Assembly: GCF_003063245.1 (NCBI RefSeq)
Contig: NZ_MUXE01000013.1
Location: 1-64,000, forward strand
Direction: 5' to 3'
Length of the DNA stretch: 64,000 nt
From: Arcobacter caeni
Lineage (GTDB): Bacteria; Campylobacterota; Campylobacteria; Campylobacterales; Arcobacteraceae
The notes under the pieces were generated by a model. It was given only the letters and a program-made list of their open reading frames with translations. It did no database searches and had not been told where the DNA came from. Below are positions 48,471 through 53,352 of the stretch, one piece after another; the first letter of the stretch is position 1, and each line of letters begins with the position of its first letter. A program made the position numbers and the translations under genes.

Positions 48471-48749
48471 TTATTTGATGATTGTGTCAGCAATTTCATT
48501 CATAGTAGCTTCAGTCATATCTTTTACTTGACCTACCATTAAACCTTTTTGAGCTCCACCATAAGTTCCAGCTTGGTAACCTTTAAGTGCAGAAACAAAA
48601 TCAGCTTTTGATAAATCTTTAATAATTTTAGATTTTCCTAAAGCAGCTTTTTCACCATTTGCACCATGACAAGCAGAACATTTAGCATAAGGGTTAGCAA
48701 AAGCAACACATGCAGTTAATAAAGATGCAGCAATAATAATTTTTTTCAT
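48471..48749 (-). CDS. Periplasmic class I cytochrome c (c553-like)
   Basis: This 92-residue small electron carrier has a signal peptide at about 1-18 (MKKIIIAASLLTACVAFA), then haem motif CSACH (about 23-27). The distal Met ligand is probably in GLMVGQVKDM. It would carry electrons in the periplasm after haem attachment by CcsBA. The start at 48749 has AAGGA upstream; a longer in-frame extension to 48815 lacks one. It follows the ligase gene by 62 bases and is probably a separate unit. Confidence 0.88.
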   Translation of the reverse strand: MKKIIIAASLLTACVAFANPYAKCSACHGANGEKAALGKSKIIKDLSKADFVSALKGYQAGTYGGAQKGLMVGQVKDMTEATMNEIADTIIK

Positions 48750-48811
48750 AGACAATCCTTTTTTATTTGTTATTATGATTATAATAGAATTTAGATTAGA
48801 CTTTATTGATT

Positions 48812-50392
48812 TCAATCAATAAATTTTAAAATAAACTCTTTTTTCAATTCATCTTTATTTATTTTATTTTTATCAGATGGAATTAAGGGTAAAGATTTTT
48901 TATAAATAATTTTTGATGGAATCATATAAGAAGCTAAATGTTTTTTTAATTCAAATAAAATTTCGCTTGAATTTAATTCATTTCTTCCTGTATACACTAA
49001 AACTATTTCTTCTTCAATTTCTTTGTTTTCTATTGAAAAAACTGCACATCTTTCAATCTCTTTAATTTCTCTTTCAACTACTGATTCTATTTCAAAAGGA
49101 CTTACTCTAAATCCTCTAGTTTTAATCATATCATCATGTCTTGATACAAAATAGAAATATCCCTCTTCATCTTTATAGACATAATCTCCTGTTTTTACAA
49201 CAATTTCATCAGTTAATTGCCCCTCAAGATTAATTACATTTTTTAAAATATCAATAGATTTAAATCTTTGTTCAGTTACTTCTTTAGCATTCCAAAAACC
49301 TTTGTAAATATATCCACCTCTATGAATTAGTTCACCTACAATTCTTGGCGCACACTCATTTGCATTTTCATCAATTACATAAAGTTCTACATCAGGAATT
49401 GCTTTTCCAATTGATTCAGGTCTTATTTTTAATTGAGCTGGATCTAGATAAGTTGATCTAAAGGCTTCTGTTAATCCATGCATTGAAAAGAATTTTGCAT
49501 TTGCAAAATATTTTTCAATATCAGCTATCATTTTTGCTGTTACATTCCCACCAGAAGATGTGATGATTCTTATGTTTTTTAATAGTTCAGTGCTTGGAAG
49601 CCTGTGAATATCTTCATCAAACATATCACTTATATTTATAGGCATTAAGGGTAAAACTGTAACTTTATCATTAATAATGTGATTAAAAAAATCATTTGGT
49701 AAAACAAATCTATGAAGTGCTAAAGTTGCTCTTTTATATAAAGAACAAAAGATTTGGTTTAATCCATAATCAAGATTAAAAATTAAAAGTCCTGAAATAA
49801 TATCATCTTCATTTAGGTGTAAATATTGAGAGACAACTCGTGCTGAATCTATTAAATTTCTATGAGAAATCACAATTCCATTTGGTTTTCCACTTAAACC
49901 AAAAGAGTAAGTAATAACAGCATTATCATGTCCATTTACATCACAAGTATATGGTTTATTGTAGTATTTATAAATTTCTTCAAAAGATGGTAAATCCTTA
50001 TGAGTTGTTTTATAAGAGATTATGTGACCGTCAAATTTGATTTCTTCAATTGATTCAAGTTTGATTTTATCTGTGATAATACATTTAATATCACAGTCAC
50101 TTATTATGTATTCAACTTGTTCTGGTTTAAGTAGTTTTGTTAGAGGAACTAAAACATAGTTTGTTGATAAAATTGCCAAAATTGCTACAACTTGGTCAAT
50201 TCCTTTATTTGAATAAACACCAATTCGACTACCTTTTGGCAAATCAAGCTCACTTAAATAATAAGCGATTTGATTTACCTTAGTAAAAAGTTCATTATAA
50301 GTTAATTTTTCATTTCCAAAAATTAACGCATTTTTATTTGGGTTTGATACATTTGCATCTTCTATTAATGTTCTAATACAATTTATTGACAT
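48812..50392 (-). CDS. AMP-dependent acyl/aminoacyl ligase linked to glutamate mutase
   Basis: This 526-residue ANL-superfamily adenylating enzyme keeps A5 (SMHGLTEAFRSTYLD), A7 (VVKTGDYVY), A8 (RHDDMIKTRGFRVSPFEIE) and the A10 catalytic Lys in LIPSDKNKINKDEL. The A3 phosphate loop is atypical: YSFGLSGKPNG at 162-172, where TSGSTGKPKG is usual. No carrier-protein or condensation domain is fused. It is the fourth gene of the glutamate mutase operon, ten bases after glmL with AAGGGG upstream. It may activate glutamate, 3-methylaspartate or a derivative as an adenylate or CoA ester. The substrate is inferred from context only. Confidence 0.82.
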   Translation of the reverse strand: MSINCIRTLIEDANVSNPNKNALIFGNEKLTYNELFTKVNQIAYYLSELDLPKGSRIGVYSNKGIDQVVAILAILSTNYVLVPLTKLLKPEQVEYIISDCDIKCIITDKIKLESIEEIKFDGHIISYKTTHKDLPSFEEIYKYYNKPYTCDVNGHDNAVITYSFGLSGKPNGIVISHRNLIDSARVVSQYLHLNEDDIISGLLIFNLDYGLNQIFCSLYKRATLALHRFVLPNDFFNHIINDKVTVLPLMPINISDMFDEDIHRLPSTELLKNIRIITSSGGNVTAKMIADIEKYFANAKFFSMHGLTEAFRSTYLDPAQLKIRPESIGKAIPDVELYVIDENANECAPRIVGELIHRGGYIYKGFWNAKEVTEQRFKSIDILKNVINLEGQLTDEIVVKTGDYVYKDEEGYFYFVSRHDDMIKTRGFRVSPFEIESVVEREIKEIERCAVFSIENKEIEEEIVLVYTGRNELNSSEILFELKKHLASYMIPSKIIYKKSLPLIPSDKNKINKDELKKEFILKFID

Positions 50393-50402
50393 TGTGTTCC
50401 CC

Positions 50403-51587
50403 TTATTGTTGAGTTATACCAAGAGTCCAAATATCGTAATTTGAATCGAGGATAATAGATGGATGAATATCTGAATTTAAAATCTTTTTATAGAAAAATG
50501 AAATAATATCCTCAGATTCTTCAAAACTAAGCACTTTTGTAATTCCACCTGTTAATACAATTGATTTTAATAAATTTAACTTTAATTTTATATACAAAGG
50601 ATGAGCTTCACTAACTTTATATAAAACTAAAAAAATTGCCAATTGCATTAAAATTCTCAAAGATTTAGGTGAATCTTCATTGAAAATATTTTCTGTTACT
50701 TTTAAATGAGCCAATAATTCATAAACAAATTCGTTGTTTTTAGCTGCAAATATTAAAGACTCTTTTGATTTAAAAACTCCAAGTTTTTTAAAAACTAATC
50801 TATCATATTCATTTTGGGTAACCATATTATCAGATGATAAATCTTTTGAGTAGTGAATATCAGTTGTAGCTCCTCCAATATCTATTAAAATAAATGGATT
50901 TACAACTGCAAATTTACTATCTATAAAAGGCAGAGTTTTATTTACAATATATGGCGTTGAAAAGATTTGATTTGAAGTTAAATCATATAAATGTTTTATG
51001 TCTTCTTTTCCTTCAATATCAGCTTGATAAAGGTTTGTTAAATAGTTTTTTAAAGGCTCTTCTACCACATGAAGTTTGTTATTTATGATATTTTCTACAA
51101 CAACTAAATTTTGAATATTATTTTTCAAATAATCAGCATCAAAGCTTGAACCTGCAAATACAATATTTGAAAATCTTAAATTTTCTAAATAGTTAAATAG
51201 TTTTTCATCAAATACATTATTTACACTATTAATTCCACCTACAACAATAACAACATCAATTAAATCACTTGGAATTGATGATGTTTGAATATCTTGGTAT
51301 AAAACTGTATTAATAATATTTATTCCAGAATTATAAGCAATATTTGTTGCAAATTTTAAAGAAAAAGAGTTAGTAATCCCAATAATTAAAGTTGTTAATC
51401 CACCATTTGCAGATGAGCAAATAAATACTTCTTCTTTTTTGAATTTAGAAATAGTTTCAGAACATTTTGATAATAAATCATCATAAATATCTTTATTAAA
51501 ATCCCTAAAATATTGTTCAACTTGATTGTTAGCACAAACTTTGAAATATGTACTTCCGACATCTATTAATAATTTATTTTGGCTCAT
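50403..51587 (-). CDS. glmL: Glutamate mutase reactivase GlmL (MutL, ASKHA ATPase)
   Basis: This 394-residue MutL-family protein belongs to the actin/Hsp70-like ATPase fold and is unrelated to mismatch-repair MutL. It has phosphate-1 LLIDVGSTYFKV (residues 6-17), phosphate-2 ILIDIGGATTDIHY (near 231) and ICSSANGGL. Such proteins exchange damaged cobalamin in glutamate mutase. It overlaps the glmE stop by four bases (ATGA), and AGGAATTATGCA precedes its start. Its presence argues that the mutase is functional. Confidence 0.88.
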   Translation of the reverse strand: MSQNKLLIDVGSTYFKVCANNQVEQYFRDFNKDIYDDLLSKCSETISKFKKEEVFICSSANGGLTTLIIGITNSFSLKFATNIAYNSGINIINTVLYQDIQTSSIPSDLIDVVIVVGGINSVNNVFDEKLFNYLENLRFSNIVFAGSSFDADYLKNNIQNLVVVENIINNKLHVVEEPLKNYLTNLYQADIEGKEDIKHLYDLTSNQIFSTPYIVNKTLPFIDSKFAVVNPFILIDIGGATTDIHYSKDLSSDNMVTQNEYDRLVFKKLGVFKSKESLIFAAKNNEFVYELLAHLKVTENIFNEDSPKSLRILMQLAIFLVLYKVSEAHPLYIKLKLNLLKSIVLTGGITKVLSFEESEDIISFFYKKILNSDIHPSIILDSNYDIWTLGITQQ

Positions 51588-52948
51588 TGCATAATTCCTA
51601 TATCATGGATAATATCATTTACTATTGATGAAGCATCTTTATTTAAGTCACATTGAGATTTTTCATATTCAAAACATCTATCACTAATTGGAAGGTTTCC
51701 TTTTTTGATGATTCTGATATTTTTATTTTTATCTCGCACAGTTACAACTTCATTGTGGTTAATAATATGTGGAGAATAAGGAACATCAATGATTCCTGAT
51801 TTTATGCAGTTAAATACTTTTCTCCATAAAGTGTCAGCTTTGTCATTAAATACAGCTTCCATGATACTTTTAACTTCACTTGTTACAATCTCTTCTTCTT
51901 GTTCATCCGTAATTACAGGAATTCCTTGAAGCATTCTTAGTGTGTATTGAGTATTTGCAACTGTTTTTGCATTTGATTCTCGAGTTGGAATACCAAAAGC
52001 TTCATCTCTTGTTTTTGTGATAATTTTATCAGCTCTAACCATTGAAGCAATTACCGTTGAAGTATTGATTAATGATTCACTAAAATCTTTATTTGATGGA
52101 AATGCTCCCATCCATTGATGATAAACAAGATTTATCATAGCATCACCACATCCAATTTGGTTTGCATAATGTTTTGCCATTTTTCTCAAAACATTTGCAG
52201 TTACAATATCTTGAATCATTGAACCTGTTTGTGAAAATGAAACTGAAAAAGATTTAACTCCCTCTTCAAGAGATAAAAGCATTTCACAAATTTGAATAAC
52301 AATAGTGATACAAGGAGGCACTAAAGTTGCAGTTAATGGACCAAAAGATTCTCTATTGATTGGTTCATTTAATTTTGAGTAGTTTGCGCAAATTCTTTCT
52401 ACATACTTCCAATACATAAATGCTTTATCAAGTGGAAAGTTTTTAGAGTATGGTAAAAGATAAGTAATCGGACCACCTTCAATCTCAAAAATACCAGAAG
52501 CAAGTGCTGTTTCTATTAAAAGTCTAGCATCAGGAGTTCCATGTCTTAATGAAATAGGTTTATCAAAGTGAGTCATCATTTTTCGGCTAGTTCTATAACC
52601 ATGATTTACAAGTGGATAACCATTTAACATATCAACTTCATTTTCTTCACTAAGTTTTAACATTTTGGCAGATGTTGCGTAGTCATTTAATCTTGTATTT
52701 GAATCAATTGTACAAGGTAATACATCAACATTTGCATCAACGAAAAATTCATAAAGTGAAAACATTTTTTTATAAGTAGGAAATCCACCTCTTGGTTGAA
52801 CTAACATTTTTTGTTTGTTCTTAAAGTGATGAGAAATAAATAGATTTTTTGAAGCGCCTTTTATAAACTCTTCAATTTCAGCAAAATCAAAATTATCTGC
52901 ATATTTATTTTGAACAATGATATTTCTTTCTTCTTGAAGTAAACTCAT
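51584..52948 (-). CDS. glmE: Glutamate mutase epsilon (catalytic) subunit
   Basis: Adenosylcobalamin-dependent isomerase that would turn L-glutamate into (2S,3S)-3-methylaspartate. The 454 residues form the TIM barrel. Substrate carboxylate-binding arginines known from Clostridium cochlearium GlmE (Arg66, Arg100, Arg149) correspond to Arg53 (QPRGG), Arg86 (NTRLND) and Arg135 (LRHGTPDARL). Glu171 and Tyr177 correspond to Glu157 and Tyr163. FGPLTATLVPP is also kept. Start: ATG with AAGGAG upstream and a four-base overlap with glmS. Confidence 0.92.
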   Translation of the reverse strand: MSLLQEERNIIVQNKYADNFDFAEIEEFIKGASKNLFISHHFKNKQKMLVQPRGGFPTYKKMFSLYEFFVDANVDVLPCTIDSNTRLNDYATSAKMLKLSEENEVDMLNGYPLVNHGYRTSRKMMTHFDKPISLRHGTPDARLLIETALASGIFEIEGGPITYLLPYSKNFPLDKAFMYWKYVERICANYSKLNEPINRESFGPLTATLVPPCITIVIQICEMLLSLEEGVKSFSVSFSQTGSMIQDIVTANVLRKMAKHYANQIGCGDAMINLVYHQWMGAFPSNKDFSESLINTSTVIASMVRADKIITKTRDEAFGIPTRESNAKTVANTQYTLRMLQGIPVITDEQEEEIVTSEVKSIMEAVFNDKADTLWRKVFNCIKSGIIDVPYSPHIINHNEVVTVRDKNKNIRIIKKGNLPISDRCFEYEKSQCDLNKDASSIVNDIIHDIGIMQ

Positions 52949-53352
52949 TTTCTCTCCTTCAAGTATTTTTCTAATTCATCAAGTCCAGTATTTAAATCTG
53001 TTTGGTGAAATACCAAATCAAATCCGTAGTTTTTAAATTTAGGAACAAGAACACTTGCATCACCTTCACCAACAGCTAAGTTTCCACCAATCATAAATAC
53101 AACATCTTTTAAATTTTTATATTTTGACTTTAAAATAGCAAGTTCTCTACACCAACCCTCAGCTTCACCATTTAATGAAGAAATAAGTAAAACATCAGCA
53201 TTTGTTTCAATTACTGCATCAATAAACTCTTCAAGGTATGTATTAACACCTAAATTAAATACTTCAAATCCTCTTGCTTGTAATGATATATCAATAAGTC
53301 TATTTGCAACTACATGTATATCGTTACCAACTACGCCTATAACTACTTTCAT
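52945..53352 (-). CDS. glmS: Glutamate mutase sigma (B12-binding) subunit
   Basis: This 135-residue flavodoxin-like cobalamin-binding subunit carries the lower-ligand His13 in GNDIHVVAN. The classical DxHxxG reads DIHVVA, with Ala16 for the Gly. SSL (58-60) and MIGGNLAVG (87-95) supply the rest of the nucleotide-tail pocket. It partners with GlmE. It is the first gene of the four-gene operon glmS-glmE-glmL-ligase, whose promoter must lie in the 65 bases before it. Confidence 0.9.
   Translation of the reverse strand: MKVVIGVVGNDIHVVANRLIDISLQARGFEVFNLGVNTYLEEFIDAVIETNADVLLISSLNGEAEGWCRELAILKSKYKNLKDVVFMIGGNLAVGEGDASVLVPKFKNYGFDLVFHQTDLNTGLDELEKYLKERK

Follow-up and report, generated by a model that had tools for sequence, protein, structure and literature searches.

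A glutamate mutase operon of Arcobacter caeni with a VinN-like ANL protein and an RraA-like partner, a candidate cassette for 3-methylaspartate biosynthesis

Glutamate mutase is known from fermentation, from the haloarchaeal carbon cycle and from a few antibiotic pathways. What, then, is it for in Arcobacter caeni, where its genes stand in one operon with the gene of an ANL-fold (AMP-binding, adenylate-forming) protein? We analysed a stretch of 64,000 nucleotides of this species (contig NZ_MUXE01000013.1 of assembly GCF_003063245.1, positions 1 to 64,000; hereafter the window), in which glmS, glmE, glmL and the ANL gene run head to tail on the minus strand from 53352 to 48812. Our literature search found no paper on this operon and no described product. 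The reading to which we give about an even chance is that of a 3-methylaspartate cassette used for biosynthesis and not for fermentation, with a VinN-like ANL protein and an RraA-like partner, akin to the vicenistatin starter pathway but separate from it.

The four genes are tightly packed. glmS (52945-53352) overlaps glmE (51584-52948) by 4 bases, glmE overlaps glmL (50403-51587) by 4 bases, and a gap of 10 bases separates glmL from the ANL gene (48812-50392). A preliminary description of this DNA had given the same gene set, coordinates, overlaps and gap, and both the open reading frame positions and the family searches agree with it. A scan with one genome per species yielded 80 loci and a set of 150 related genomes yielded 30 more; the two sets partly share genomes. 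The order glmS-glmE-glmL-ANL is unchanged in essentially all sufficiently long loci, both in Campylobacterota and in marine Gammaproteobacteria, and the gene overlaps recur across the homologous loci. A tree of the concatenated operon has one campylobacterotal and one gammaproteobacterial clade, which suggests that the operon was inherited together as a unit. The recurrent gene order, the kept overlaps and the joint evolution in two phyla argue that the arrangement is not due to chance.

The ANL gene also follows glmE from genome to genome. Among the 150 relatives, an ortholog of the ANL protein accompanies glmE in 56 of 58 genomes and was found in none of the other 92, counts that ignore shared ancestry; the co-occurrence of ligase and glmE on which the preliminary description depended is thus seen in the relatives. 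One of the two exceptions has a glmE fragment only (G076), and the other (G058) is a draft assembly in about 170 contigs. glmE is rare in Gammaproteobacteria (4 of 369 genomes); three of the four carry this cassette, and one has a distant GlmE and no ANL gene. A remnant of the cassette was seen in another genome (G041, contig C1; locus L150, 9869-10480), where glmS and a short ANL tail are left, glmE and glmL are gone and the RraA gene is intact. This remnant is a natural loss of the cassette.

GlmE, the catalytic E subunit (454 aa), matches Pfam Met_asp_mut_E with an E value of 1.2e-117. Its score with TIGR01503 is 377 bits against a cut-off of 390, and it is therefore a divergent member of the family. 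It aligns with GlmE of Clostridium cochlearium over most of its length, with R53, R86 and R135 opposite the arginines of that enzyme. These substrate arginines, which the preliminary description had reported as kept, are invariant in 95 homologues, and so are E157, Y163, Y167 and K312. By its fold, its trio of substrate arginines and its active-site Glu, Tyr and Lys, the protein qualifies as the GlmE of a glutamate mutase. GlmS (135 aa), the cobalamin-binding S subunit of glutamate (methylaspartate) mutase, scores 168.9 bits with NCBIfam PRK02261, above the cut-off of 110. Its cobalamin motif is D11-I-H13-V-V-A16, that is DxHxxA and not DxHxxG, and DIHVVA is found in 105/105 cassette copies. 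GlmS of C. cochlearium reads DCHAVG at the same motif; the cassette GlmS keeps the Asp and His and has Ala for Gly, a change that is present in two deep branches too. GlmL (394 aa), a MutL-family (actin-like ATPase) accessory protein of glutamate mutase, matches PF13941 with 95 bits, and the GlmL models score below their cut-offs. From family and conserved residues, we infer that L-glutamate is turned into (2S,3S)-3-methylaspartate by GlmS and GlmE, and that GlmL maintains these two.

The ANL protein (526 aa) matches the AMP-binding family. TIGR03098 is its top NCBIfam model, with 422 bits against a membership cut-off of 592, and VinN (3wvn) is the top single-domain structural match to its core. 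In the biosynthesis of vicenistatin, VinN activates (2S,3S)-3-methylaspartate, treating it as a beta-amino acid (PMC11284099). The pocket residues D230, F231, S299 and R331 of VinN (PMC11253843) align with D208, Y209, S280 and R312 of the ANL protein, Y209 being a conservative change. None of the four ANL residues varies among 70 sequences, and two deep branches keep them as well. The TE-x-x-R loop equals that of VinN in length, and the beta13-beta14 loop is one residue shorter, as is typical of VinN. The ANL protein is thus likely to recognise 3-methylaspartate (or aspartate). The preliminary description had tied the ligase to 3-methylaspartate, and this tie is strengthened by the alignment with VinN.

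The same description regarded the stand-alone ligase as the only partner of the mutase. This view has to be revised, as a homologue of an RraA-like protein (E 1e-8 or better, paralogs included) is present in 57 of the 58 glmE-bearing genomes versus 11 of the 92 others. The protein (PF03737, about 159 residues) is homologous to aldolases and oxaloacetate decarboxylases. Its gene is divergent from glmS and lies at most 1.5 kb from glmE in 54 of the 74 loci with enough upstream sequence; it is elsewhere in the fetched flank in 9 further loci. In A. caeni itself the gene is unlinked to the operon and lies outside the window, on contig C55. Most RraA-family proteins carry a metal-binding and catalytic motif, and they are regarded as class II pyruvate aldolases, a group of enzymes that also decarboxylate oxaloacetate (PMC5065237). 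R97 and D98 of the RraA-like protein are invariant and equivalent to the catalytic pair of HMG/CHA aldolases. Position 76, which is 21 residues before the Arg in the D-X20-R-D motif, is Glu in 58/67 sequences and Asp in 9/67.

Other genes were noted near these loci. In Arcobacteraceae (locus L142, 4118-9499; contig C55 of A. caeni, G000), three genes come after the RraA-like gene: one weakly similar to gamma-glutamylcyclotransferase, one for a large TPR-like protein, and ovoA, which encodes ovothiol synthase. A link to ovothiol was considered but rejected, since ovoA does not track with GlmE (87 genomes) and several glmE-bearing genomes are without it. A small c-type cytochrome gene (48471-48815) comes after the operon in Arcobacteraceae. 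Its true start is likely an ATG near 48750, and its overlap with the ANL gene an artefact of a mechanically chosen TTG start.

How could these proteins work together? In the cassette that we propose, 3-methylaspartate from the mutase, or aspartate, would be bound as a beta-amino acid by the ANL protein, a relative of VinN and of the TIGR03098 ligases. By analogy with VinN and from the invariance of the residues, D208 would hold the amino group, and S280 and R312 the non-activated carboxylate. The protein would then commit the C4 carboxylate to what follows, with no dedicated carrier protein involved. It may do so by an adenylation that is slow or altered, with a subsequent transfer to CoA, AcpP or an amine; alternatively, it may capture the product and pass it on without adenylation. 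The RraA-like class II aldolase/decarboxylase homologue would belong to this pathway too and use a 2-oxo acid that arises from it. The cassette probably feeds an undescribed pathway.

Several observations weigh against this reading. The structure model of the ANL protein is poor (26 close homologues, pLDDT 49.7), and the pocket is therefore read from sequence alignment. The A3 phosphate loop of the A. caeni protein, Y162-S-F-G-L-S-G-K-P-N-G172, is altered in 70/70 sequences, where S-F-G-[LMIV]-[ST] stands in place of the canonical [TS]-S-G-[ST]-T. The full pattern in these sequences is Y-S-F-G-[LMIV]-[ST]-G-x-P-[KN]-G, compared with YTSGSTGKPKG in a TIGR03098 ligase (the copy in locus L190). 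The position of the A10 lysine depends on the alignment, being K510 in the first (K in 26/70) and K508 in the second (K in 55/70); when only sequences lacking lysine at both candidate positions are counted, there are 13 among 71. A deep ANL branch reads LHSQEIDK at the A10 site. The canonical A3 loop that characterises adenylate-forming enzymes is thus wanting in the ANL protein, and the A10 lysine, another such feature, is missing from part of the sequences; together these changes put ordinary adenylation in doubt. Strong selection thus seems to act on recognition of the substrate, though not clearly on ordinary adenylation. The preliminary description had proposed that the pathway may activate 3-methylaspartate or a derivative; the VinN-type pocket speaks for the substrate, but the activation itself is in question.

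In addition, no acceptor or downstream enzyme was found among the families searched, and the RraA-like and ANL proteins together point to no single obvious reaction sequence. The cofactor poses a further difficulty. Glutamate mutase requires adenosylcobalamin (AdoCbl). The cobalamin adenosyltransferase families PF02572 and PF01923 were not detected in the A. caeni genome, in searches whose positive controls worked, and the supply of AdoCbl is thus unexplained. On the Campylobacterota side, to which these counts refer, PF02572 was found in 6 of 150 relatives, one of them glmE-bearing (G093), and PF01923 in 0/150. AdoCbl may be imported, or produced by an unrecognised enzyme.

The ANL protein could still be a normal ATP-dependent ligase in which the motif changes are tolerated. 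It would form 3-methylaspartyl-CoA at C4 (or load AcpP there), just as VinN loads its carrier, and the picture in the preliminary description would hold in full. The VinN-type pocket agrees with such an enzyme, as do the kept A5, A7 and A8 motifs, with T308, E309, D403, R418 and R429 invariant, and the presence in most sequences of K508, which stands opposite the A10 lysine in one alignment. However, the A3 loop is altered in every sequence and the A10 lysine is not strictly conserved, and it is this lysine (K517 of GrsA) that is named as stabilising the adenylation step (PMC11253843). We consider a normal ligase possible, if on the whole unlikely. A pocket that is invariant while A3 and A10 are altered would also suit a mutase partner that does not adenylate, be it product-binding, thiolation-only or regulatory, which would pull the unfavourable equilibrium towards 3-methylaspartate. 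Its strict occurrence with GlmE, and the failure of our searches to find an acceptor, carrier or downstream partner, are consistent with this role. Invariant A5, A7 and A8 motifs, which serve AMP binding and the thiolation half-reaction, would nevertheless be needless in a mere binding protein, and we know of no precedent for an ANL protein as a non-adenylating partner of glutamate mutase. Such a role is doubtful in our judgement.

Other explanations give 3-methylaspartate a different fate. It might be transaminated to 3-methyloxaloacetate and then decarboxylated by the RraA-like protein, so that glutamate would be turned into 2-oxobutyrate and would feed isoleucine or propionyl-CoA. The homology to class II pyruvate aldolases with oxaloacetate decarboxylase activity (PMC5065237) and the invariant R97 and D98 would fit this route, and at many loci of Gammaproteobacteria the RraA gene has a PRK09257-family aminotransferase gene beside it. 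The aminotransferase was seen in gammaproteobacterial loci only, however; position 76 is mostly Glu whereas the known motif has Asp, and the ANL protein is left without a role. With threonine deaminase found in 88 of 92 relatives, A. caeni included, isoleucine does not depend on the operon, and we rejected the supply of isoleucine or 2-oxobutyrate as its main role. The route as a whole seems to us quite improbable. GlmS, GlmE and GlmL are also common to classical methylaspartate fermentation and the haloarchaeal methylaspartate cycle, whose lyase and mesaconate enzymes could be encoded elsewhere in the genome. But methylaspartate ammonia-lyase (PF07476) had no match in the A. caeni genome or in most glmE-bearing relatives, in agreement with the preliminary description, and the matches in two other relatives are weak and partial. 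Moreover, the ANL and RraA-like proteins belong to neither pathway. With no lyase found, methylaspartate fermentation was rejected, and we hold it very improbable that either pathway operates here.

Loading of 3-methylaspartate as in vicenistatin biosynthesis was rejected as well, since neither a carrier nor a pyridoxal phosphate-dependent decarboxylase was found. The preliminary description had noted the lack of a carrier, and this is correct in the sense that no dedicated carrier protein was found; several glmE-bearing genomes have a single PF00550 protein only. No VinO-type decarboxylase was found beyond two PF02784 proteins per genome. The PF02784 count is two in nearly all tested genomes, whether glmE is present or absent, and by size the two are read as diaminopimelate and arginine decarboxylases. 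TIGR03099 scored above its cut-off in only 1/12 gammaproteobacterial genomes, and no polyketide synthase was seen in or near the cassette.

A bolder form of our proposal would be that the ANL protein no longer adenylates and uses its VinN-type pocket for 3-methylaspartate in a reaction, or a mutase-accessory role, that is new to the superfamily. Together with the RraA-like enzyme it would belong to a five-gene pathway whose product would be a new and widespread marine metabolite, and which in Campylobacterota would run without a known cobalamin adenosyltransferase. We offer this version tentatively and think it unlikely to be right in full. Under the favoured reading, a biosynthetic 3-methylaspartate cassette, the locus is a further setting for glutamate mutase, present in many marine species of which some are culturable (Colwellia, Vibrio, Arcobacteraceae). 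It allows one to test whether evolution can lead an adenylate-forming enzyme away from adenylation with its substrate pocket kept, and it raises the question of the source of AdoCbl in genomes without a recognised adenosyltransferase.

The cassette can be compared with four known systems. In the vicenistatin starter pathway of Streptomyces halstedii (VinH/VinI mutase, VinN, the carrier VinL and the decarboxylase VinO; PMC11284099, PMC11253843), a mutase is likewise combined with a stand-alone ANL protein that has the same pocket residues. The cassette differs from this pathway by its altered A3 and A10 motifs and its RraA-like partner, and by having no carrier, VinO-type decarboxylase or polyketide synthase that we could see. 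With the clostridial glutamate mutase of methylaspartate fermentation it shares the GlmS, GlmE and GlmL set and the substrate arginines; unlike that system, it is without methylaspartate ammonia-lyase, its GlmS has DxHxxA and its GlmE falls below the TIGR01503 cut-off. The RraA-like partner has the size and the catalytic Arg-Asp pair of the RraA and HMG/CHA aldolase family (PF03737), but it is linked to glutamate mutase and has Glu or Asp 21 positions before the Arg.

The closest named ANL family is TIGR03098, the exosortase-A-associated ligase. Pseudomaricurvus (locus L190, 7304-10140) has this cassette and, separately, a TIGR03098 ligase with a TIGR03099 decarboxylase. That ligase is 32% identical to the cassette ANL protein. 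It has canonical A3 (TSGSTGKPKG) and A10 (NGKLDR) motifs and its gene adjoins that of TIGR03099, whereas the cassette ANL gene adjoins glutamate mutase. The TIGR03098 system includes the TIGR03099 decarboxylase and a carrier protein, and the cassette ANL protein has neither partner. Both proteins contain the DYG and LTEAFRSTYL stretches; to judge from the latter, an aspartate-like beta-amino acid may be a substrate of the exosortase-associated ligase too.

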